DNA from: Bacteroidetes bacterium GWC2_46_850
GTDB taxonomy: Bacteria > Bacteroidota > Bacteroidia > Bacteroidales > Dysgonomonadaceae
Length of the DNA: 64,000 nucleotides
NCBI GenBank assembly: GCA_001768325.1
Contig: MENQ01000021.1
Coordinates: forward strand, 372,001-436,000
Direction: 5' to 3'
This document shows, one piece after another, positions 50,119 to 60,061 of the stretch; positions within the stretch are counted from its first letter, which is position 1; the number at the start of each line of letters is the position of its first letter. The translations under genes were made by a program, and so were the position numbers. Below the pieces are notes generated by a model, which was not told the origin of the DNA, did no database searches, and worked only from the letters and a program-made list of their open reading frames with translations.

Positions 50119-50160
50119 CGTGTATGAATATAATTTAACCGTGCTAAAACGGCGTGAAAT

Positions 50161-50219
50161 AAAAAATGTGAATTGTAGGTCGCAAACCGGTCGGTTTGCA
50201 AGAGGCAAGCAACGCTGCC
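50161..50219 (-). promoter_or_regulatory. Hairpins in the thr leader, possible attenuator
   Basis: Between the leader peptide and thrA the minus-strand transcript can fold a hairpin from GGCAGC/GCTTGCC (50204-50219, one bulge), then a perfect GCAAACCG/CGGTTTGC hairpin (50182-50199), followed about 15 bases later by a T6 run (50161-50166). The distance to the T-run is larger than in a standard intrinsic terminator, so the attenuation mechanism is unproven. Confidence 0.4.
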
Positions 50220-50235
50220 GTTCGGATGTGAAAAT

Positions 50236-50310
50236 TTACATAACCCCCCAAGGGGTCATGGTCATTGTAGTAGTGAAGTATGTTGAATACAATCTCTGCA
50301 TTTCGAACAT
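50236..50310 (-). CDS. thrL: thr operon leader peptide
   Basis: 24 codons from the ATG at 50308-50310 to the TAA at 50236-50238. The peptide starts MFEMQRLYSTYF and continues TTTMTMTPWGVM. It has 6 Thr and 5 Met; the tight TTTMTMT run names the end products of the pathway encoded downstream. The last Thr codon runs into a CCCC/GGGG hairpin. Length, position about 120 bases before thrA and composition match attenuation leader peptides such as E. coli ThrL, although the sequence is unrelated. Too short for ordinary gene calling. Confidence 0.75.
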   Translation of the reverse strand: MFEMQRLYSTYFTTTMTMTPWGVM

Positions 50311-50329
50311 CTTTGATGTAAATTTGATG

Positions 50330-50337
50330 CAAAGATA
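50330..50337 (-). promoter_or_regulatory. -7 promoter element of the thr operon
   Basis: TATCTTTG on the minus strand fits the consensus exactly and would start the transcript about 12-15 bases before the leader peptide ATG. A clear -33 TTTG is missing. Confidence 0.5.
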
Positions 50338-50508: not shown

Positions 50509-53031
50509 TTACCTGTTTGAAACGCTATTGCCGAACAGAACTGCGTTCACGAAAGTGCGTGTTGTGGCGTCCCATATTCCGCGGAACAGCGGATCCTCCA
50601 CGAAAAGAATCACGTTTCCCCTGTCTGATCTGTTGACCGATATGGAGGTGGATCCTTTTATTTTTTCCAGTTGTTCCCCCGGGATGTAACCGTTCAACAG
50701 CGGGTCGTCACTGTATAAGGATACCGAATTTTCCGAGTGAGCCAGGAAGAAGCGATTTTCTCTTGCCACCGGTAGATGGGGGCTGGTGAGTCCAAAGGCC
50801 AGTGGATGTTCCAGATCAATGCGGGTTTGAAATACCGATGTGGGAAGTTGCTCTCTCAGCCGGGATCCGGGTTGCCGTTTTTCACCCGATGTAATGCTAT
50901 CAACTGAATTTACAATCTTTTCGGAAGACAATTTCGCATTCACAGCCCATCGGGAGGCGCGGTTCACGGTGATCAGTGTCCCTCCGTTTCTGATCCAGTA
51001 ATTCAGTTCCTCCAATTGCCTTTCACCCAGGAAGTCGTAGTTACCGCTCACAAAGATGATCCGGTTGAATTCATGAAGAGGCACCCGGGCGAGGTTGTCA
51101 CTGTCGATCCGCGTGAGGGGATACCGAAGCTGCTGATCGAACAGATGCCACACTTCGCCTGCTTCGGTGGAGGAGATATCGCCGCCGGTGACGACCAGCA
51201 CCTTCGGTTTTTCCACCATGCTGAAAGCACTACTACCCAGGTCGACCCCCCGCACATTGAGCCCGGTGGTGACCGGGATGATTTCCACCTTCGCCTGCTC
51301 ACCCGCCTTTCTGAGAATTTCATGCAGTTCCCGGGAACTGATTGGCTGGTTGCTGACCGGAATAAGCAGGCTGCCATAGGAGAAGTCGTGCTCACCCGCT
51401 TCAGTTTTCACTGAAAATGGTTTGGAGGCGGTTTTAATGAGAATATTATTTTCCAGCAATGTAAAGAGTAGGGATTGACTTCCTGAATTACGGTAGTCGA
51501 CCAGGTAGGCATAAGGTGATTCCTGCAGGGTGGGGAGCGTGGGATCCGGCACCTCCGTTATCCGGTTGCCCCGTCTGGCGGAGGAAGTTTCCCCATAGGA
51601 AAGCCCCGTGGAAAAGACCACCGAGAATCCTGCTCCGTAGCCTAGTTTGTCGGCAATCTCATCGGCATAATCTTTTTTGTTGTCAAATATGATTCCCACC
51701 AGCGCGCTATTGGCCTGCCCTGCAGGAATAATATATGATTTGCCGCGTTCATAAAGCAGGCTGTCGATCACGAGGTCTGCGTTGTTTTCATACACCTCCA
51801 GCCGGTGGGCGAGCAGCAGTCCGATAAACTTGTTCAGACGGGAACGGTCGTGGCTATCGCCTACCACATAAGCCCTCGCTGCTTCCCTCCCGGTTGCCGG
51901 CTGGAAAAACTCCTGCTGCAGATCGAACAGCGCCTCCCTGTTCGCAAGCGCAGCCTCCACAGTAGCGAGTGTCGTAACCAGTTGGTTGCGTATGGTAAAG
52001 GGGTAGGTCACCAGCCCGTTTTCCGATTCCTGTTGTATTCCTCTCGATGAACCCTGCTCGAAGAGGATTCCCACACCGCCGTTGTAATCGGGATAAGTGG
52101 ATCCGAAGTTGGGATTTTTGTTGTCGTACGACTCTTTCGTGTAATAAAATGAACCGATCCTGTCGAGTGCCTTCGCGTAATAATCGGCAAAGAGGCGGTT
52201 CAGTTTGTAATTGGATTGTGGCACAAAGCGGCTCTCATTCCCCTCAGGGTCGGTCGGCTCAAAGAAGAAAGAGGAGTTGGTACCCATCTCGTGATGGTCG
52301 GCCTGTACATGGGGCAGCCATTTCTGATAAAGCGCTACCCGTGCCCTGCTTTCGGGATGTACGAGGTTCACCCAGTCGCGGTTCAGGTCGAACCAGTAGT
52401 GGTTCCCCCGCCCCCGCGGCCAACCCTCGGTATGTTCCCGGTCATAGGGGGAGGTGTTGTGTCCGTTCAGGCTGACGTTTGCATTGATCCAGGAGGCAAA
52501 CCGTTCCAGCCCGTCGGGATTCCGTACCGGATCGATAAACCAGATGCCCTCCTCCAGTTGTCTCTCCACCTCATTTCCCCGGGCGGCGGTGAAGTAGTAG
52601 GCTGTCAGCAGGGCAGCATCGGCAGAGGAGCTTTCGTTGCCATGTACCGCGTTGCCCAGGAAAATAATTAGCGGGGTGTCGGGCCTTTCACCTTTCCGCG
52701 CTCCTTCGCGAGACGCCCTGTATCGGTCGAAGTTGCGAATATTCTCGGGAGAAGAGGCCACCAGTACATATAATTTCCGGTTCTCATGCGTTCTTCCGAT
52801 CTCCAGCAGGGTTGTCCTGTCGGAGAGTTCGTTGAGCCGCTCGTAATAGGCGTTGATACGACTGTGTTCGCTTATCCGGCTCCCGATGGGATATCCAAGG
52901 AACTCTTCCGGCGTAGGGATGGCGGAGTCGAAGGTGATATGGGGGGAGAAATAATAATCCAGTCCTTCGGCTCTTAGTGGTGCTTCTGAAAAAAATAACA
53001 AAAGTGCCACAATCAGAATAATCTGCTTCAT
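50509..53031 (-). CDS. Secreted M14-family zinc carboxypeptidase
   Basis: 840 residues with a signal peptide ending near PLRAEG. The M14 domain (about 45-340) has zinc ligands His130 and Glu133 in AVHGNESSSAD, a later His in QADHHEMGTNSS (about 245-250) and a likely general-base Glu in GVGILFEQGSSRG. A large C-terminal part (about 370-840) includes a ThuA/GAT-like region (VLVVTGGDISSTEAGEVW, INRIIFVSGNYDF-like text, NYWIRNGGTLITVN). It should trim peptides in the periplasm or outside the cell. It is the last gene of the binding protein-SusC-SusD-TlpA operon, 15 bases after tlpA. Confidence 0.9.
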   Translation of the reverse strand: MKQIILIVALLLFFSEAPLRAEGLDYYFSPHITFDSAIPTPEEFLGYPIGSRISEHSRINAYYERLNELSDRTTLLEIGRTHENRKLYVLVASSPENIRNFDRYRASREGARKGERPDTPLIIFLGNAVHGNESSSADAALLTAYYFTAARGNEVERQLEEGIWFIDPVRNPDGLERFASWINANVSLNGHNTSPYDREHTEGWPRGRGNHYWFDLNRDWVNLVHPESRARVALYQKWLPHVQADHHEMGTNSSFFFEPTDPEGNESRFVPQSNYKLNRLFADYYAKALDRIGSFYYTKESYDNKNPNFGSTYPDYNGGVGILFEQGSSRGIQQESENGLVTYPFTIRNQLVTTLATVEAALANREALFDLQQEFFQPATGREAARAYVVGDSHDRSRLNKFIGLLLAHRLEVYENNADLVIDSLLYERGKSYIIPAGQANSALVGIIFDNKKDYADEIADKLGYGAGFSVVFSTGLSYGETSSARRGNRITEVPDPTLPTLQESPYAYLVDYRNSGSQSLLFTLLENNILIKTASKPFSVKTEAGEHDFSYGSLLIPVSNQPISSRELHEILRKAGEQAKVEIIPVTTGLNVRGVDLGSSAFSMVEKPKVLVVTGGDISSTEAGEVWHLFDQQLRYPLTRIDSDNLARVPLHEFNRIIFVSGNYDFLGERQLEELNYWIRNGGTLITVNRASRWAVNAKLSSEKIVNSVDSITSGEKRQPGSRLREQLPTSVFQTRIDLEHPLAFGLTSPHLPVARENRFFLAHSENSVSLYSDDPLLNGYIPGEQLEKIKGSTSISVNRSDRGNVILFVEDPLFRGIWDATTRTFVNAVLFGNSVSNR

Positions 53032-53046
53032 GATCTCTGTTGATTT

Positions 53047-54030
53047 TTAATTGAGTAACTCTTCCAGTGTTTTGTGCAGGTCTTCCCCTTTCAGGTTTTT
53101 TGCAACGATGATGCCATGCTCATCAATCAGGAAATTTGCCGGGATGGCCCTTACACCGTAAAGTTTTGCCGGTCCGCTATCCCACAGCTGCAGGTCGGAC
53201 ACCTGTGTCCATGTCAGGCTGTCTTTTTCGATCGCTGCCAGCCAGCTTTCCCTGTCGCGGTCGAGTGATACGGCGAAGATATCAAAACCTTTGTCTTTAT
53301 ATTTCTGATAAGCGCTGACGATATTGGGGTTCTCCCTGCGGCAGGGTCCGCACCAGGAGGCCCAGAAATCAAGGAACAGGTATTTGTTTTTGCCGATGTG
53401 GTCAGAGAAATTAACTGCTGTACCCTCGCTGTTGTTTACCCTGAAGTAGGGGGCAGGATTGCCGACTGCTACTTCTTCGAGCGTGGGTATCAGCTCCTCC
53501 AGCTGTTGAACGTAGGGTGTATTCCATAGTGAGCTGTCGAGCAGTTGAATGTTATATCTGATTTCATCGGGCGACAAACGGTAGGAGAAGTCGCGATACA
53601 GGGCGTAGGCCGAAACCAGGGAGGCTGGATGCTGTTGTATAAAGGAGTCTATGGCAACGGAACGTTGTTCCTTGTAGGCTGCATACAGATCGTGCAGCTC
53701 CGAACCCGTTATCTTCGAATTGCGGTAGTTGCGCGATGAATCAAGGGCAACGGTTGCCGGATTTTCATCGAAGAAAACCAGAAAGGAGCCTTTCAGCGTA
53801 TCGAGTGACAAACCATATATTTCCGGGAGTTCCACATTTTTGGAAAAGCTGAATTGGCCATTCACAATTTCTGCGGAGTCAATGACGAAGAAAAACTTGT
53901 TGCGGAACTTCTGTAAGTAGACCGTTCCGGATTCAACTCCCTCCGTGTGGCCTGTAACGTTCAGATTGTTTTTGTCGTTGCAGGAGAATGCTACAAATGC
54001 TGTTACCAGGAATAATAAATACTTTTTCAT
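53047..54030 (-). CDS. TlpA-like thioredoxin-fold lipoprotein with DUF4369-type N-terminus
   Basis: 327 residues; lipobox at FVAFSC (Cys17). Residues about 24-110 resemble DUF4369 (VESGTVYLQKFRNKFFFVIDSAEIVNGQFSF). Residues about 190-327 are a TlpA/ResA-type thioredoxin domain with the redox motif WCGPC at 226-230 in FLDFWASWCGPCRREN and the cis-Pro region VRAIPANFLIDEHG. It probably reduces disulfides in the periplasm. In an operon with a Cys/Met-rich leader, a SusCD pair and a peptidase, reduction of disulfide-bonded peptides is an attractive inference, but many Bacteroidota carry such genes beside SusCD. Confidence 0.92.
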   Translation of the reverse strand: MKKYLLFLVTAFVAFSCNDKNNLNVTGHTEGVESGTVYLQKFRNKFFFVIDSAEIVNGQFSFSKNVELPEIYGLSLDTLKGSFLVFFDENPATVALDSSRNYRNSKITGSELHDLYAAYKEQRSVAIDSFIQQHPASLVSAYALYRDFSYRLSPDEIRYNIQLLDSSLWNTPYVQQLEELIPTLEEVAVGNPAPYFRVNNSEGTAVNFSDHIGKNKYLFLDFWASWCGPCRRENPNIVSAYQKYKDKGFDIFAVSLDRDRESWLAAIEKDSLTWTQVSDLQLWDSGPAKLYGVRAIPANFLIDEHGIIVAKNLKGEDLHKTLEELLN

Positions 54031-54112: not shown

Positions 54113-55615
54113 TTATAAATTAGGGTTGTTATTGATTTCATTCAGTGGAATAGGGAAAAGAAAATATTTACTGTTGGGTACAAGCGGGGAGCCGTCGGGA
54201 AAAGTGGTAAACCAGTGTCCCCGCACTGCGACTGTATTGTTCTCATCATCGACAAATGTTTCTGTCGACTCCCGCCGTACCGGTGCGGTCTGTAAACGTA
54301 GGATGTCATACAGTCTGAACCCTTCGCCCCATAATTCGCGACGTCGTTCCAGCAATATCTCCTCCAGGATACGCTCCTTATTGAAGTCTGCGGGAGAGAG
54401 GTCGGCCAGATTCCTGTTTCGGCGCAGTTCATTCAATGTCTCAACTGCCCCGGTCAGGTTATTCAATCTTGCTTTGCTTTCGGCTTCAATCAGGATCATT
54501 TCTGCTGCACGCATCAAGACAATATGCCCGTCGTGATGAGGATATTTGTTTCTGAATTTTTTGTTCCTGTAGTGGCTGTATAACGCTTCATTGGGTTGTG
54601 TCGCTACTTCAAGAAGCGATTTGCGGATATCACCATCTTCAAAGATTTGAACATACCAGGGATCAGGCATGATGCTGTTATATCCATAATAGAGATTGGT
54701 GCCATTGGCATTGGTGGTGTACGGGGTTGTTTCGATATAGGCCAGGTAGGAGGCTCCTCCTCTATTTTGGGTCTGTGTCTGTGGATGTCCCCATATCCAT
54801 TCCGGGTTACTCACATCATTGAAACCTTCGGTATATTGTTCCGGTGTCATCACCGGGTAGCCGGTGCGTGCTCTTTCTGCATATTCAGCCGCCAGTTCCC
54901 ATTCACCCAATGTCTGGTAGACACGGGCAAATAGTCCCCGTACCACGTTCAGGTCGGGTCTGTTTTTTACCGTTCGTTCAAACCCGGACAACAACTTCTC
55001 AGCCTCAGTTAAATCATCCAGGATCACCTCATATACCTCGCTGACCGATGAAAGCGGATTGGGTTCTGTTGCCGGCGTCGTGGGGTGTATATATACCGGG
55101 ATTGCTTTCGCATTGGGATCCTTCGCATAGGTAAACTGGTACTGGCGTACCAGATTGAAGTAGTTGTATGCCCGCAAGGCGTATGCCTGGCCTTTGAGAT
55201 GTTTTAGACGCTGACTGCTTTCCTCTTTGATCTCAATATGGGCAATGATGTTGTTGGCATGATCGATGGATGTATATTGCAATGTCCAGAAAAAGAGTGC
55301 ACGGCGGGTGGTGTTGTCAAACGGGTCGCGGTAGGGGTAAGAGTCACGGTATCCATACCGTCCGTCACGGGCAAAAGCATCCTCACCCATTACCTCGTGA
55401 GTAAGAAAAATAGTCGGTAATCCCGGGTTGTCCTGTGAAGTACTGTTTTCCATCAGATAACGGATGGCTCCGTTAATGAAGGCGTCGATGTTGTTCTCGG
55501 AGGAGAAAACCTCCTGGGTGGTGATCTGGGTTGCTGGTGAAGTCTCAAAGAAACTGTCGTTGCAGGATAGAACCAAAACCCCTGTGATCAGCAGATATAT
55601 TGTTTGTATTTTCAT
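54113..55615 (-). CDS. SusD/RagB-like surface lipoprotein
   Basis: 500 residues; lipobox LVLSC (Cys18) followed by NDSFFETSPATQITTQEVFSSE, the usual SusD opening. The TPR-like helices include LKGQAYALRAYNYFNLVRQY and VRGLFARVYQTLGEWELAAEYAE; the C-terminus has LLERRRELWGEGFRLYDILR and ends SKYFLFPIPLNEINNNPNL. It partners the SusC encoded 18 bases upstream. The bound nutrient is unknown; the neighbours (binding protein, thioredoxin, carboxypeptidase) favour peptides or a sulfur compound over polysaccharide. Confidence 0.96.
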   Translation of the reverse strand: MKIQTIYLLITGVLVLSCNDSFFETSPATQITTQEVFSSENNIDAFINGAIRYLMENSTSQDNPGLPTIFLTHEVMGEDAFARDGRYGYRDSYPYRDPFDNTTRRALFFWTLQYTSIDHANNIIAHIEIKEESSQRLKHLKGQAYALRAYNYFNLVRQYQFTYAKDPNAKAIPVYIHPTTPATEPNPLSSVSEVYEVILDDLTEAEKLLSGFERTVKNRPDLNVVRGLFARVYQTLGEWELAAEYAERARTGYPVMTPEQYTEGFNDVSNPEWIWGHPQTQTQNRGGASYLAYIETTPYTTNANGTNLYYGYNSIMPDPWYVQIFEDGDIRKSLLEVATQPNEALYSHYRNKKFRNKYPHHDGHIVLMRAAEMILIEAESKARLNNLTGAVETLNELRRNRNLADLSPADFNKERILEEILLERRRELWGEGFRLYDILRLQTAPVRRESTETFVDDENNTVAVRGHWFTTFPDGSPLVPNSKYFLFPIPLNEINNNPNL

Positions 55616-55633: not shown

Positions 55634-58600
55634 TTAGAATGATACATTCACTCCCAATGTATATGATTTCTGCGCCGGGTAACGGTAGAATGTTGATCCT
55701 GAAACGGTCTGTTCAGGGTCCAATCCTTTATGTTCGTAGAAAGTTAAAATATTTTCTCCTGTAAGGGACAATCTGATATCGGTCAGATTCCAGCCTGCAA
55801 CCAACTTTTGAGGCAGCGCGTAGGAGAGCGAGAGATTCTTGAGTCGTGCATAGGTGGCGCTATACAAAAACCTTGTTGAGGGGATCGTATTCCAGGCGTC
55901 CGACACATAGGAGAGTCGCGGGAAGTCGGTATCCCTGTTTTCCGGAGTCCAGCGTGTTATTGCCTCCTTCGACCAGTTTCTTCCCGGGGCATATCCCAGG
56001 TGCATGATCATTGGCTGATCCCCGTCGAAAATCTTACCCCCTATACTATAAGCGAGGAGAAACGACAACTCAAGGCCTTTGAAGGATAAATTGTTGTTTA
56101 ACCCTCCATAGAGGTCGGGCAGTGAACTACCCTGAAAATAGGGTGTTGCTTCGGTTTGATTTTCGGTTGTCGTCCGGCCGGTGATGTTCCCGCTTTCATC
56201 CACGACATCCTTATACCAGGTCGCTTTACCATTTTCAGGATTGACTCCCGCCCACTCCTTGATGTAAAAATCATATACAGAACCTCCTTCTACCATCTTC
56301 TTGGTGTTACCATACTGCCCGATTGATCCGGTTAGAATTTCCTCCTGGGGTAACTTTGTGATCCTGTTGGTATAGTGACCGAAGTTGAGGGTGATATCCC
56401 AGTTGAAATATTTGTTCCTGACAGGGGTGGCAGTTATCTGTCCGTCAATCCCCCTGTTGCTCAGGGAGCCGATGTTTGCGTTGATACCACTGTAGCCTGT
56501 GGATGGAGAGAGCGGTCTCTGGAAAAGCAGATCTTTCGATTGCCTGTTGTATAGATCCAATTGGGCAATCAGCCGGTTATCAAACAGGGAGATGTCTACT
56601 CCCACATTGAAATTCAGGTTAGTCTCCCACTTCAGGTTGGGAGTCGGCAGGTCAGAAGGCAGCAGGCCCAGCAAATCGAGGCTGTTATAGATTTCGTAGA
56701 ATCCGCCATAGGCATAATTTCCGACATTGTCGTTGCCCTGGGCACCATAGCTAAACCGCAGATTCAGATTGTCAATATCCCGTACGTCCTGCAGGAAATC
56801 TTCCTTCTTCAGGTTCCAGGCTGTTCCTACCGACCAGAAGTTGCCCCATCGGGACTCCTTGCTGAATCGCGAAGAACCGTCGCGTCTGAAGCTGGCCGAG
56901 AGATGGTAGCGGTCGAGATATCCATAATCCACTTTGCTCAGCCAGCTTGCGAGGCGGTAGTTGTCGGAACTTCCAAAGAAGGTGCCGCTCGTGGAACCGG
57001 CCGAAGGTTCTGTCTTACCCAGGACCTGGAACCCGGTTCGGCTGCCGGACAGGGAGGAGGTATTGTTCACGTAAACCTCGGGCCCTGCCAACAGATTCAG
57101 GGAGTGTGATTTATTCGGGTTGAAGGTATAGTCGATAAAACTGTTCACCGTGTAGTTGAGTGTCCTGCTTGCACTTCTACTGGCCGTGCCGGCACCTTCG
57201 GAGATTACGCCAGTGCTGTAATATGAGTGTGAGTAAGCATGTGAGCTGCCTGTCCGGTAATCAATGCTTGCGGTGGTTCGTAACAACAGCCCTTGCAGAA
57301 AGGTAATGTTCAGGTTGGTGCTGAGCAGGGCCGCTTCCGTCTTGCTGCCCGAAATGGCGTGTTCTGCATTTCCGAGAATATTCACCCCGCTGGCTGCGGT
57401 GGTAGGACGCCACACGCCATAGTCCCACTTTTTATTTCCGTTTTCATCCAATGCATAGCTACCATCCGGATTGCGTTCATATACCGGGTAAATATTCGAG
57501 ATAAGCCGTTGGAAATTGGCAAAGTTTCCCTGGCTGCTGTCGCTTTGAGAGGGTGCTTTTTGGTAGCTGGAGGAGAGCGATGCATTTGCACCGATGTCGA
57601 ACCATTGGTTGACTTTTGACTGGATGTTGGTTCGAAAGTTAAAGCGCTCAAAATCAGATGTCCGTATCCATCCCTCCTCGTTCAGATAGCCACCGGAAAA
57701 GAAATAACGGGTATGGGCACTCCCTCCTGCGATGCTTAAATCGTACTGCTGACGGATGCCGGTTCGTGAGATCGCTTTACCCCAGTCGTCGTTCCACAAC
57801 GGAATCGCTCCGGACGCTAACCTACCGTCTGTTCCTACAGGCTTCGGGTATTGGGGACCGTAAATATTTACCTTGAGTGCACCATCCACAAGATAATCGG
57901 TTGCATATTGAGCCGCTTCCGCAGCTGTTTTGCCCTGATCGACCCGGGTGTTGCGGATTGCCTCCCACTGCAATTCATAATATTCATTTGGCGAGAGGTA
58001 TTCATAATCTTTCACAGCGCGGCCGGTGAATCCGACACTGGCTGATAAGCTGACCTGTGGCTTTGCATTCAGATTTCCCGATTTGGTGGTGATGACGATC
58101 ACGCCATTGGCACCTCTTGATCCGTAGAGGGCGCTTGCAGAAGCATCTTTCAGGATGGAAATTGACTGAATATCTTTGCCGCTAATCTGGTTGGGATTTG
58201 CTCCGGGTATACCATCCACCACATAGAGTGGAGCCGTGGAAGCGTTCACCGATCCGATCCCTCTGACAAAGAGCGAGGCGTCGCTACCCGGTTGCCCTGC
58301 GGTAGCAATGGATTGAAGCCCTGGTACTGTTCCCTGCAATGCTTTTCCGATAGAGGTAATCTCTAACTTCTCCAGCGCTCGGGCTCCTACCACCGCGACA
58401 GACCCGGTGTATCGTGATTTCTTTGCGGTGCCATACCCTACGACCACCACCTCATCGAGGTAATTCACATCTTCGGTGAGGGTGATGTTTACCGGAACGT
58501 TTGCTTCGTATACATAAACCTCCTCGGTCTTGAATCCCAGGAAGGTGATGGTCAAGATTACCGGTAGCGGCTGTTCGGTGGCGAGACTGAACGCTCCGTT

Positions 58601-58783
58601 CACATCGGTGATGGTGCCGCTGGCGGTGGATTCGACATAAACCGTGACTCCCGGTATGGGCTGTTTGGCCCTGTCCACAACCGTGCCGCGAATAGTCTGC
58701 TGCGCAATAGCACTGAGTGAAAAGAAGAGGAGAAAAGAAACAAAAAGAGGTTTATTCTGAAAGAAATGTGATATATTTGTCAT
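55634..58783 (-). CDS. SusC/RagA-type TonB-dependent importer
   Basis: 1049 residues. Signal peptide ending near SAIAQ, CarboxypepD_reg-like domain (about 30-110, GTVVDRAKQPIPGVTVYVEST), NYLDEVVVVGYGTAKKSRYTG, plug domain (SLFVRGIGSVNAS, LYVVDGIPGANP, ILKDASASALYGSRGANGVIVITTKSG) and barrel ending in SYTLGVNVSF. With the SusD downstream it forms a gated outer-membrane importer. No glycoside hydrolase gene is in this operon, unlike the polysaccharide locus. A large hairpin separates it from the binding-protein gene. Confidence 0.97.
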   Translation of the reverse strand: MTNISHFFQNKPLFVSFLLFFSLSAIAQQTIRGTVVDRAKQPIPGVTVYVESTASGTITDVNGAFSLATEQPLPVILTITFLGFKTEEVYVYEANVPVNITLTEDVNYLDEVVVVGYGTAKKSRYTGSVAVVGARALEKLEITSIGKALQGTVPGLQSIATAGQPGSDASLFVRGIGSVNASTAPLYVVDGIPGANPNQISGKDIQSISILKDASASALYGSRGANGVIVITTKSGNLNAKPQVSLSASVGFTGRAVKDYEYLSPNEYYELQWEAIRNTRVDQGKTAAEAAQYATDYLVDGALKVNIYGPQYPKPVGTDGRLASGAIPLWNDDWGKAISRTGIRQQYDLSIAGGSAHTRYFFSGGYLNEEGWIRTSDFERFNFRTNIQSKVNQWFDIGANASLSSSYQKAPSQSDSSQGNFANFQRLISNIYPVYERNPDGSYALDENGNKKWDYGVWRPTTAASGVNILGNAEHAISGSKTEAALLSTNLNITFLQGLLLRTTASIDYRTGSSHAYSHSYYSTGVISEGAGTASRSASRTLNYTVNSFIDYTFNPNKSHSLNLLAGPEVYVNNTSSLSGSRTGFQVLGKTEPSAGSTSGTFFGSSDNYRLASWLSKVDYGYLDRYHLSASFRRDGSSRFSKESRWGNFWSVGTAWNLKKEDFLQDVRDIDNLNLRFSYGAQGNDNVGNYAYGGFYEIYNSLDLLGLLPSDLPTPNLKWETNLNFNVGVDISLFDNRLIAQLDLYNRQSKDLLFQRPLSPSTGYSGINANIGSLSNRGIDGQITATPVRNKYFNWDITLNFGHYTNRITKLPQEEILTGSIGQYGNTKKMVEGGSVYDFYIKEWAGVNPENGKATWYKDVVDESGNITGRTTTENQTEATPYFQGSSLPDLYGGLNNNLSFKGLELSFLLAYSIGGKIFDGDQPMIMHLGYAPGRNWSKEAITRWTPENRDTDFPRLSYVSDAWNTIPSTRFLYSATYARLKNLSLSYALPQKLVAGWNLTDIRLSLTGENILTFYEHKGLDPEQTVSGSTFYRYPAQKSYTLGVNVSF

Positions 58784-58851: not shown

Positions 58852-59784
58852 TTAATTTGTACTGGCTGTGAATGCTAAGTTATCTATCTCTTTTAACTGG
58901 GCAGCCAGAATTTTATCTTCAACCGGCAGAAAACCATATGTCTTGTTGTATTGCTGACCTTCCGACAGGATCCAGGTCAGGAATTTTTGCGCCTGGCTAT
59001 TGTCATTCCGGTAAATAAATCCAAAATTCAGCACCGGGATTAGTTGTATCTGCTCCCTTTCGAGGAGGGCTATTGTTTGATCCATATCGGCCTGTTTCAA
59101 TACTTCCCGTTGTTCTTTTCTCACATCAAGCGGTATCAATGCCAGTCCCTCTTTCAGTTTCCGCGTCTCTATGTCAAATAAATAGCTGAGATTGTTGAAG
59201 GTGACACCCACATGGTCATTTTGCACTGCATGAATGAGAAAAATGTCATCTCCTGAGATCTTTTTGCCCTTCAACTCGACAGGAGAATGACCGAAATAAG
59301 CAGAAAAGGAAGCAGAAAAGGAGTTTGCATTATTTCCGGAATAGATGATCACATCATGTTTCTGCTCTTTCGCCGATTCTGAATCAATTTCTAAGCCATC
59401 CTTTTCAAAAAACAGTTCTTTCAACCGGTTGCTGTTTAACCCTTTTCTGTTGAACGCATCCAACAGCGGGTTTTCTTCATTTGTGACCGGGAGCAGGGCA
59501 TATCGACCGGTATAGAACAGAGGCTGACTTGCTGGGAACGTTCCATCCTTTCCGAAACTCACCAGACTCAGGTCGGCAGCCTCACCGGAAGTTTTTTCCC
59601 CTGTCAGCACAATTTCTATACCGGGATTTGCTTTTTCATACTCGGACGCCCATTTCTCAATCAGTGGAATGGCAAACCGGGAACTTTCAATATAAAGTTT
59701 CTCTGTGGGTCTTGTCCCGGCCTTGATGGCCGTTGTGAACAAGAGTAGAACCGTCGCTAACTGAATAAACCTAAAACTTTTCAT
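58852..59784 (-). CDS. PstS/ModA-like periplasmic substrate-binding protein
   Basis: 310 residues from the ATG at 59782-59784; an upstream in-frame start would overlap the attenuator. The signal peptide ends near AIKAG. The rest has the two-lobed type II binding-protein pattern: LYIESSRFAIPLIEKWASEYEKANPGIEIVL, then DLSLVSFGKDG, FYTGRYALLPV and a C-terminal YRNDNSQAQKFLTWILSEGQQYNKTYGFLPV. Relatives bind oxyanions such as phosphate, sulfate or molybdate. No ABC permease or ATPase gene is near, which is unusual for such a protein. As first gene after a Cys/Met-rich leader and terminator, a sulfur-containing ligand is a hypothesis only. Confidence 0.75.
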   Translation of the reverse strand: MKSFRFIQLATVLLLFTTAIKAGTRPTEKLYIESSRFAIPLIEKWASEYEKANPGIEIVLTGEKTSGEAADLSLVSFGKDGTFPASQPLFYTGRYALLPVTNEENPLLDAFNRKGLNSNRLKELFFEKDGLEIDSESAKEQKHDVIIYSGNNANSFSASFSAYFGHSPVELKGKKISGDDIFLIHAVQNDHVGVTFNNLSYLFDIETRKLKEGLALIPLDVRKEQREVLKQADMDQTIALLEREQIQLIPVLNFGFIYRNDNSQAQKFLTWILSEGQQYNKTYGFLPVEDKILAAQLKEIDNLAFTASTN

Positions 59785-59810
59785 CGCGCTTTTTTTAAAA
59801 ATTAATGAAT

Positions 59811-59842
59811 AAAAAAACTCCACCGATATGCATCGGTGGAGT
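59811..59842 (-). terminator. Intrinsic terminator between leader peptide and operon (attenuator)
   Basis: ACTCCACCGAT (59817-59827) and ATCGGTGGAGT (59832-59842) form a perfect 11-bp stem with a 4-base loop, followed on the minus strand by T7 (59811-59817). It lies 30 bases after the leader peptide stop and 27 bases before the binding-protein ATG, so it must be passed for the operon to be transcribed. I could not find a clear antiterminator partner by eye. Confidence 0.85.
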
Positions 59843-59872
59843 TCCCTATAAAATTGTATTTAATATGATCTC

Positions 59873-59965
59873 TTATCCTTTCCCGACACGACAGCGTTTT
59901 ATGAACATACACATGTCCATAGAACAACAACACATCATCATGGATGAAGTATGTGTACCTGTCAT
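59873..59965 (-). CDS. Cys/Met-rich regulatory leader peptide
   Basis: 30 codons from the ATG at 59963-59965, the only ATG between the predicted transcript start and the peptide, to the TAA at 59873-59875. It opens MTGTHTSS, then MMMCCC (residues 9-14), SMDMCM (15-20) and ends FIKRCRVGKG. Seven Met and five Cys make 12 of 30 residues sulfur-containing, far above chance. A two-box promoter lies before it and a perfect intrinsic terminator after it, the layout of an amino-acid attenuator. Ribosome stalling on consecutive Met and Cys codons when charged tRNA is scarce would be the signal. Alternatively the Cys/Met cluster binds copper or another thiophilic metal as it emerges. I know no named family for it. 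Confidence 0.75.
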   Translation of the reverse strand: MTGTHTSSMMMCCCSMDMCMFIKRCRVGKG

Positions 59966-60029
59966 ATCTTGTGAAAAAGCTTTCAAAATTATTCTGTTCT
60001 TAAAACAAATTAGTTTTTCTTTCGAAAAA

Positions 60030-60061
60030 CAAAGATAAAGTAATTTATTTCTTCTTTCCAA
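60030..60061 (-). promoter_or_regulatory. Promoter of the Cys/Met-leader operon
   Basis: TTG (60059-60061), a 21-base spacer and TATCTTTG (60030-60037) on the minus strand match the Bacteroidota boxes. The transcript would start near 60023, about 58 bases before the leader peptide ATG. Confidence 0.6.

Follow-up and report, generated by a model that had tools for sequence, protein, structure and literature searches.

In the window, which is the whole 64,000-nucleotide stretch of DNA analysed here, a SusCD operon on the minus strand begins at 59784 with the ATG of a gene for a substrate-binding protein (SBP). The genes of the operon were assigned as listed below, with the supporting family matches in brackets.

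58852..59784, minus strand: substrate-binding protein (SBP), 310 aa, distantly PstS-like (TIGR00975, E 4.7e-4, far below the cut-off)
55634..58783, minus strand: SusC/RagA TonB-linked outer membrane protein (TIGR04056, above cut-off)
54113..55615, minus strand: SusD family protein (PF07980, PF14322)
53047..54030, minus strand: protein with DUF4369 and a thioredoxin-like domain of TlpA/ResA type (PF14289, PF00578)
50509..53031, minus strand: M14 zinc carboxypeptidase (PF00246)

The profile scan found no Pfam family in the SBP, a profile search against the PDB returned marginal matches only (PstS2 at E 0.04), and the AlphaFold model, with a mean pLDDT of 51.9, was too poor for a fold search. Related clusters gave further context. 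Further genes follow in the G022 cluster: one is C39-peptidase-like, one encodes an M20 amidohydrolase and one an SDF-type symporter akin to transporters of neutral and excitatory amino acids. Elsewhere, a cysteine desulfurase gene is followed by a set of SBP, SusC, SusD and M14 genes, in which SusCD and M14 were identified by reading the sequence, and in a genome of another family (G042) a PstS-like relative lies between cysK-like and pstCAB-like genes, followed by cysH (NF002537 above cut-off). This context would fit the uptake of a sulfur compound; the likeness to PstS could also point to an anion. The PstSCAB-like genes of G042, flanked by cysK-like and cysH genes (L030 7141-11597), perhaps encode a sulfur-anion transporter of PstS type.

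Upstream of the SBP gene, the first-pass annotation had described a two-box promoter, a 30-codon frame in which 12 residues are Met or Cys, a perfect 11-bp hairpin with seven T and then the binding-protein ATG of a SusCD operon. Each of these was recovered on the minus strand, and pairing partners for the hairpin were added to the feature list.

60061-60059 and 60037-60030, minus strand: promoter-like boxes TTG and TATCTTTG (sequence)
59986 or 59965 to 59873, minus strand: leader frame, from TTG 59986 (37 codons) or ATG 59965 (30 codons) to TAA 59875-59873 (sequence, conservation)
59956..59980, minus strand: region 1, putative protector strand, pairs with region 2 (duplex test, p = 0.010 in the window locus, L002, and p = 0.002 in L003)
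59906..59941, minus strand: putative control codons MMMCCCSMDMCM (CCC-x-M-x-M-C-M or close forms in relatives)
59876..59898, minus strand: region 2, the last leader codons, with the candidate antiterminator core GTGTCGG at 59889-59883 (duplex, alignment, folding)
59829..59847, minus strand: region 3, the terminator 5' arm and part of its loop, with the core CCGATGC at 59836-59830 (duplex, alignment)
59812..59847, minus strand: intrinsic terminator with a run of T, formed by regions 3 and 4 (hairpin scan; it also forms in the computed fold)

Bacteroidota promoters have the form TTTG / TAnnTTTG. The exact box TATCTTTG occurs at -253 from the SBP ATG in both the window locus and L003, at -222 in L007 and at -221 in L008, and the distal leader of L004-L006 is preceded by TACTTTTG. 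The exact box was absent from the 500 nt taken at L009 and at L010; in both, the distal leader lies near the edge of that stretch. An extra promoter-like match, TAATTTTG, stands at -207, at the start of the leader, in L002 and L003, which counts against the assignment of the boxes.

Met or Cys makes up 40% of the 30-codon leader (MTGTHTSSMMMCCCSMDMCMFIKRCRVGKG). As background, 699 frames of 20-60 codons running from a start to a stop were taken from the window, and the highest Met plus Cys share among them was 26.1%. Translation may begin upstream at TTG 59986, since relatives carry TTG or GTG followed by AAA there when compared by eye. The terminator has 11 perfect pairs (ACTCCACCGAT/ATCGGTGGAGT), a loop of 4 and seven T, the first of which is paired; the hairpin scan gave a stem of 16 pairs at 59847-59812. 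It stands between the leader and the first gene of the operon, a feature by which membership among amino-acid attenuators is judged.

Orthologs of the SBP were found in 10 of 37 Proteiniphilum genomes. Leader and terminator were both kept in all nine of the orthologous loci in the genus that had upstream DNA (terminators identified by script); the tenth, L011 in G033, offered 40 nt of upstream DNA only. Two leader-terminator units stand in series in L004, L005, L006, L009 and L010. The pattern CCxMxMCM, with at most one mismatch, was present in 10/39 genomes of the genus and the reversed-pattern control in 0/39, and all ten matches lay in a frame of fewer than 100 codons with its stop 24-30 nt before a terminator. 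One of these ten genomes, G062, was not part of the first ortholog search and likewise carries an SBP gene behind two units. G007 has an additional leader before a second SusCD operon that is without a binding protein. At that leader (L023 12019) the later Cys codons are Tyr codons, giving MYMYMYMYM; the replacement of the later Cys codons by MYMYMYMYM in L044 counts against the attenuator reading.

The conserved part of the leader was its Cys/Met stretch. All nine orthologous loci retain both Cys and Met, and across the final 24 codons of 15 genus leaders these residues are held while the spacer residues drift. Cys was encoded there by 66 TGT and 19 TGC codons, with synonymous swaps at conserved positions, so that the codon-level conservation of Met and Cys for which the first-pass annotation had proposed an alignment was observed. 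The end of the leader behaved differently. It holds an RNA core (GTATCGG, with close variants) that is complementary to the 5' arm and loop of the terminator and that, counted by eye, nine units read as xGT ATC GG and six as GTA TCG G. Because one core occurs in two reading frames across units, the end of the leader is kept as RNA and the Cys/Met part as codons. Among SBP relatives outside the genus (L012-L021, of which L014 had little upstream DNA), the leader was not seen.

By eye, when the segment 59812-59986 of the window is compared with L042, its leader resembles the distal unit of the tandem pairs and its terminator the proximal one. The window element may have arisen by deletion between tandem units.

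The first-pass annotation had found no clear antiterminator. A pairing of region 2 with the terminator 5' arm and loop was detected when the region after the control codons was tested for duplex formation against that arm and loop, using 1000 dinucleotide shuffles. The sample consisted of 38 leader-terminator units from 26 loci, picked for Cys/Met content and a hairpin; 29 loci had been entered, of which three from Flavobacterium with the hairpin 45 nt past the stop (L103, L106, L114) gave no unit, and L006 was omitted as near-identical to L005. The duplex reached p<0.05 in 31/38 units, many of them close kin and so not independent tests, against 3/38 for a control using the 3' arm (300 shuffles). 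By group, the significant units were 14/15 in the genus, 17/21 before Met genes and 0/2 for the others, which are clostridial (L157 and L188). In addition to these two, the misses were four Gillisia metY units and the window itself, the only unit of the genus among them.

The competing stem, for which the earlier annotation had called for a fold prediction, is thus a property of the family and was not significant in the window, where GTGTCGG with CCGATGC gave a weak duplex (dG -11.8, p = 0.129), the weakest in the genus. The protector helix of the window, 59980-59956 with 59898-59876, was strong (dG -19.8, p = 0.010). Protector helices were significant at p<0.05 in 12/38 units, with one more at 0.050.

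When the 15 genus units were aligned, 92.5% of the cells of a nine-pair antiterminator core were paired, compared with 28-49% after sliding, and changes on both sides were seen at three pairs. Covariation was modest: shuffles matched the value for cells paired in 24/500 cases and the covariation score in 87/500. In the genus units, 9-18 nt separate the last control codon from the start of the helix. Judged against the size of the ribosome footprint, the helix would begin roughly at the point up to which a stalled ribosome covers the RNA. Folding with a masked ribosome raised the number of region 2:3 pairs by two or more in the stalled position relative to the stop in 33/38 units, a result that the masking favours by construction. 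For the window, 4.5 region 2:3 pairs were expected with the ribosome stalled and 2.3 with it at the stop, a position that masks region 2. At equilibrium the complete terminator won in all units except L188 stalled at its first CC. The choice between antiterminator and terminator must therefore be kinetic, and kinetic choice between hairpins is a property of known attenuators.

A strongly folded leader of this kind could also be a riboswitch or a terminator bound by a protein, acting independently of translation and encoding Cys and Met by chance. The folding of the leader region is indeed strong overall (z -4.29), and the protector helix could act alone. The window gave 0 matches to Rfam families at the gathering score, however, and the 15 related loci gave only SAM, SAM-II and tRNA, all at other places. 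The open frame is preserved through the synonymous changes of its Cys codons, and other lineages encode the same residues with another RNA sequence. We regard this explanation as very improbable.

The results point to a ribosome-mediated, translation-coupled Cys/Met transcription attenuator in front of a presumed importer of organosulfur compounds, a reading to which we give a probability of roughly 0.8 from comparative sequence analysis and folding. Membership in the class of attenuators is supported at the level of the family. In the proposed sequence of events, RNA polymerase would start near 60025 and a ribosome would follow on the Cys/Met-rich leader. With ample Cys-tRNA and Met-tRNA the ribosome would reach the stop codon and cover region 2, the terminator at 59847-59812 would form, and transcription would end ahead of the SBP gene. 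Under a shortage of Cys, and probably of Met too, the ribosome would stall in MMMCCCSMDMCM and leave region 2 free to pair with the terminator 5' arm and loop; the terminator would be delayed and the SBP-SusC-SusD-TlpA-M14 operon transcribed. If the leader is not translated, region 1 would be able to sequester region 2. What the operon would import is an organosulfur nutrient such as cystine, peptides containing Cys or Met, or another thiol or disulfide compound, and the thioredoxin-like protein and the carboxypeptidase would act on it.

The genes found behind the same motif in other lineages bear on the signal that is sensed. A scan of GTDB species genomes with the exact CCxMxMCM pattern returned at least 117 stretches, and among the matches listed 27 had a hairpin no more than 90 nt from the stop. 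In 18 of these 27 a Met-synthesis gene lay downstream: metY in 16, metX in one (Bacteroidetes SZAS-90) and metK in one (Pseudobutyrivibrio). The 16 metY cases among the matches listed came from Kordia (4), Gillisia (5), Flavobacterium (3), another member of the Flavobacteriaceae, a member of the Saprospiraceae, a genome titled Sphingobacteriales and one of the Ignavibacteria. Identity as metY was confirmed by TIGR01326 above cut-off in four of the 16 (L076, L082, L097 and L103), and the other 12 were called by reading the N-terminal sequence. The metX gene (L144) had MetX as its best match (TIGR01392, below cut-off), and metK (L157) matched TIGR01034 above cut-off. Tandem units were present before metY in the four Kordia loci, L148, L076 and L152, with stops 162-225 nt apart. 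The remaining hairpin-bearing matches listed were six at the Proteiniphilum operon, one before transporter-like genes that were without family confirmation (L188), and two, L098 and L160, that look like chance. As to whether the genes downstream supply the sensed amino acid, those of the metY, metX and metK relatives do, and the SusCD operon would do so by its context.

The first-pass annotation had offered copper or a similar metal as an alternative signal. On this reading a nascent Cys/Met peptide would bind the metal and thereby alter translation and termination, as CruR does ahead of a TonB receptor gene in Bordetella. A peptide rich in both Cys and Met does adjoin a TonB-dependent transporter here, and the spacing CCC-x-M-x-M-C-M is itself conserved among relatives, which simple control codons would not demand. 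The window leader has neither a CXXC motif nor a RAPP end, though some relatives do contain CXXC, for instance as CCMC in the distal leader of L004. Across the family the end of the leader is complementary to part of an intrinsic terminator, that end is retained as RNA in two reading frames and not as peptide, and no copper family was found among the neighbours scanned. The occurrence of motif and hairpin before metY, metX and metK favours sulfur amino acids over copper, for which we see very little chance.

Wider samples showed how far such leaders extend. In a class-wide sample, metY matched at E<=1e-100 in 12 of 60 genomes, giving 11 loci besides that of the own genome, of which L235 and L236 were not placed. 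A Cys/Met-rich frame lay upstream in 7/9 placed loci, compared with 0-5/200 for shuffles of the DNA of each and 1/9 (L234) on the opposite strand; a terminator was close by only at L226. Cys-rich frames, one with CCCCCC, precede metY at L226-L234 in several families of Bacteroidia; at most of these loci no intrinsic terminator was recognised. Across the remainder of the order, 24/392 genomes besides the own genome matched the pattern with at most one mismatch, and none of the 27 loci (L045-L071) had a Cys/Met leader with a convincing terminator, the hairpins of L053 and L061 being weak. In a phylum-wide sample the pattern was present in 8/395 genomes, the own genome included; L220-L223 are metY or metX leaders, at L219 a long inverted repeat follows a short frame, and L225 lacks a hairpin. 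At L224, in the same sample, a Cys/Met leader and terminator precede a gene that reads like a sulfurtransferase and has no NCBIfam match at 1e-60.

Within Proteiniphilum, metY matched in 36/39 genomes, and a Cys/Met-rich frame preceded it in 0/30 loci. The own genome has a MetY relative without a leader; CysK is also present, with no leader found directly before cysK. No match to CysH was obtained in this genome, which is rated 100% complete, and 11/14 control genomes, Bacteroides included, were positive. Sulfate assimilation by the CysH route is therefore doubtful in this organism.

Directly behind cysK, the own genome carries another leader and terminator followed by susC, susD and a thioredoxin-like gene.

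L240 15250-15600 (G000:C5), also L245 and L255: second Met/Cys leader (MKPVFNNMQSLVKMSPTSRMTMVMCCHRHRHQSLLYA) and terminator between cysK and susCD

A gene for a Cys/Met PLP enzyme (PF01053) lies near this leader. The order cysK-leader-susCD was found in three genomes (own, G025 and G027). The motif of this leader matched in 17/39 genomes of the genus, with a real leader only in those three; the other matches look like chance. Its antiterminator was not significant (dG -9.8, p = 0.35). Together with the conservation in nine of nine loci and the motif before metY, metX and metK, this second leader beside cysK supports the sulfur-amino-acid attenuator that the first-pass annotation had put forward.

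The second leader also bears on which residue would dominate, as it is Met-rich and has two Cys only. The elements may sense mainly one amino acid, either Met only, or Cys only with the Met codons a by-product of pairing or of an ATG-rich RNA. Poly-Cys frames with few Met codons before metY in L228 and L230 agree with such a division, and the presence of both residues at nine of nine orthologous loci speaks against it; the metY relatives from the pattern scan tell little here, since the pattern demanded both. We consider a single sensed amino acid possible, though rather unlikely.

For the family as a whole, we lean towards a picture in which Cys and Met attenuators, often in tandem, are widespread in Bacteroidota, read the overall sulfur state of translation and usually control metY-metX. 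In Proteiniphilum this control would have moved from synthesis to uptake and would act on at least two SusCD systems, that of the window and that behind cysK. Most SusCD systems are credited with the uptake of glycans or peptides, and many have no assigned substrate. By showing which amino acids are sensed, a leader would give a direct, testable hint that some SusCD systems serve sulfur nutrition; if the proposal is true, some SusCD pairs are sulfur scavengers, and such leaders would point to their substrates. Before metY, a Cys/Met leader would then be a general means of sulfur-amino-acid control in Bacteroidota beside SAM riboswitches.

The classical amino-acid attenuators are those of trp, his, thr and leu/ilv. 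Like them, the element has a leader with putative control codons, followed in the same order by putative protector and antiterminator regions and a terminator. New here are the pairing of Cys with Met codons, the tandem units and a SusCD import operon, not synthesis genes, as the target. The closest case for Cys is the uORFC-8-2 motif before cysS in Rhodobacterales, described in the accessible part of its source as a tandem-Cys leader with two stems and a U run, for which stalling at low charged Cys-tRNA was proposed (PMC8632094). That text names only Cys codons, with cysS as the target in Alphaproteobacteria, whereas the window operon is SBP-SusCD. In Actinobacteria, too, short upstream frames with runs of Cys codons precede sulfur genes: cys operons in Mycobacterium and in P. 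acnes, and cbs in B. longum (PMC1262725). In contrast to the present family they have no conserved terminator hairpin, and the text consulted names no Met codons. CruR of Bordetella is likewise a Cys-containing upstream frame before a TonB-dependent transporter operon, and differs, as far as the accessible text describes it, in its DUF2946 protein, CXXC motif, C-terminal RAPP arrest motif, dependence on Rho and response to copper (PMC9426467), while the window has an intrinsic terminator.

Attenuation-like leaders are mentioned for Flavobacterium psychrophilum (PMC9723704) and B. thetaiotaomicron (PMC7366714), in neither case, in the sections seen, as a Cys and Met leader before SusCD, and leader genes have been treated in general (PMC4833913). 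In the open-access literature, in so far as its text was available and with subscription papers mostly outside the scope, no description of a Cys/Met leader before SusCD or metY was found; this excludes the 64 structured 5' regions of F. psychrophilum (PMC9723704 supplement), which possibly include such leaders.

At the far end of the operon, a terminator-like hairpin was noted by eye 3' of the M14 gene. The thrA gene beyond it has a leader of its own, MFEMQRLYSTYFTTTMTMTPWGVM, which follows a TATCTTTG box (window 50120-50330, minus strand, by eye). Because of the hairpin and of the promoter-like box and leader that thrA has for itself, this gene probably lies outside the SBP-SusCD operon. L022 and L026 retain its leader with a CCCCTTGGGGGG stretch, and this looks like a Thr (and Met) leader.
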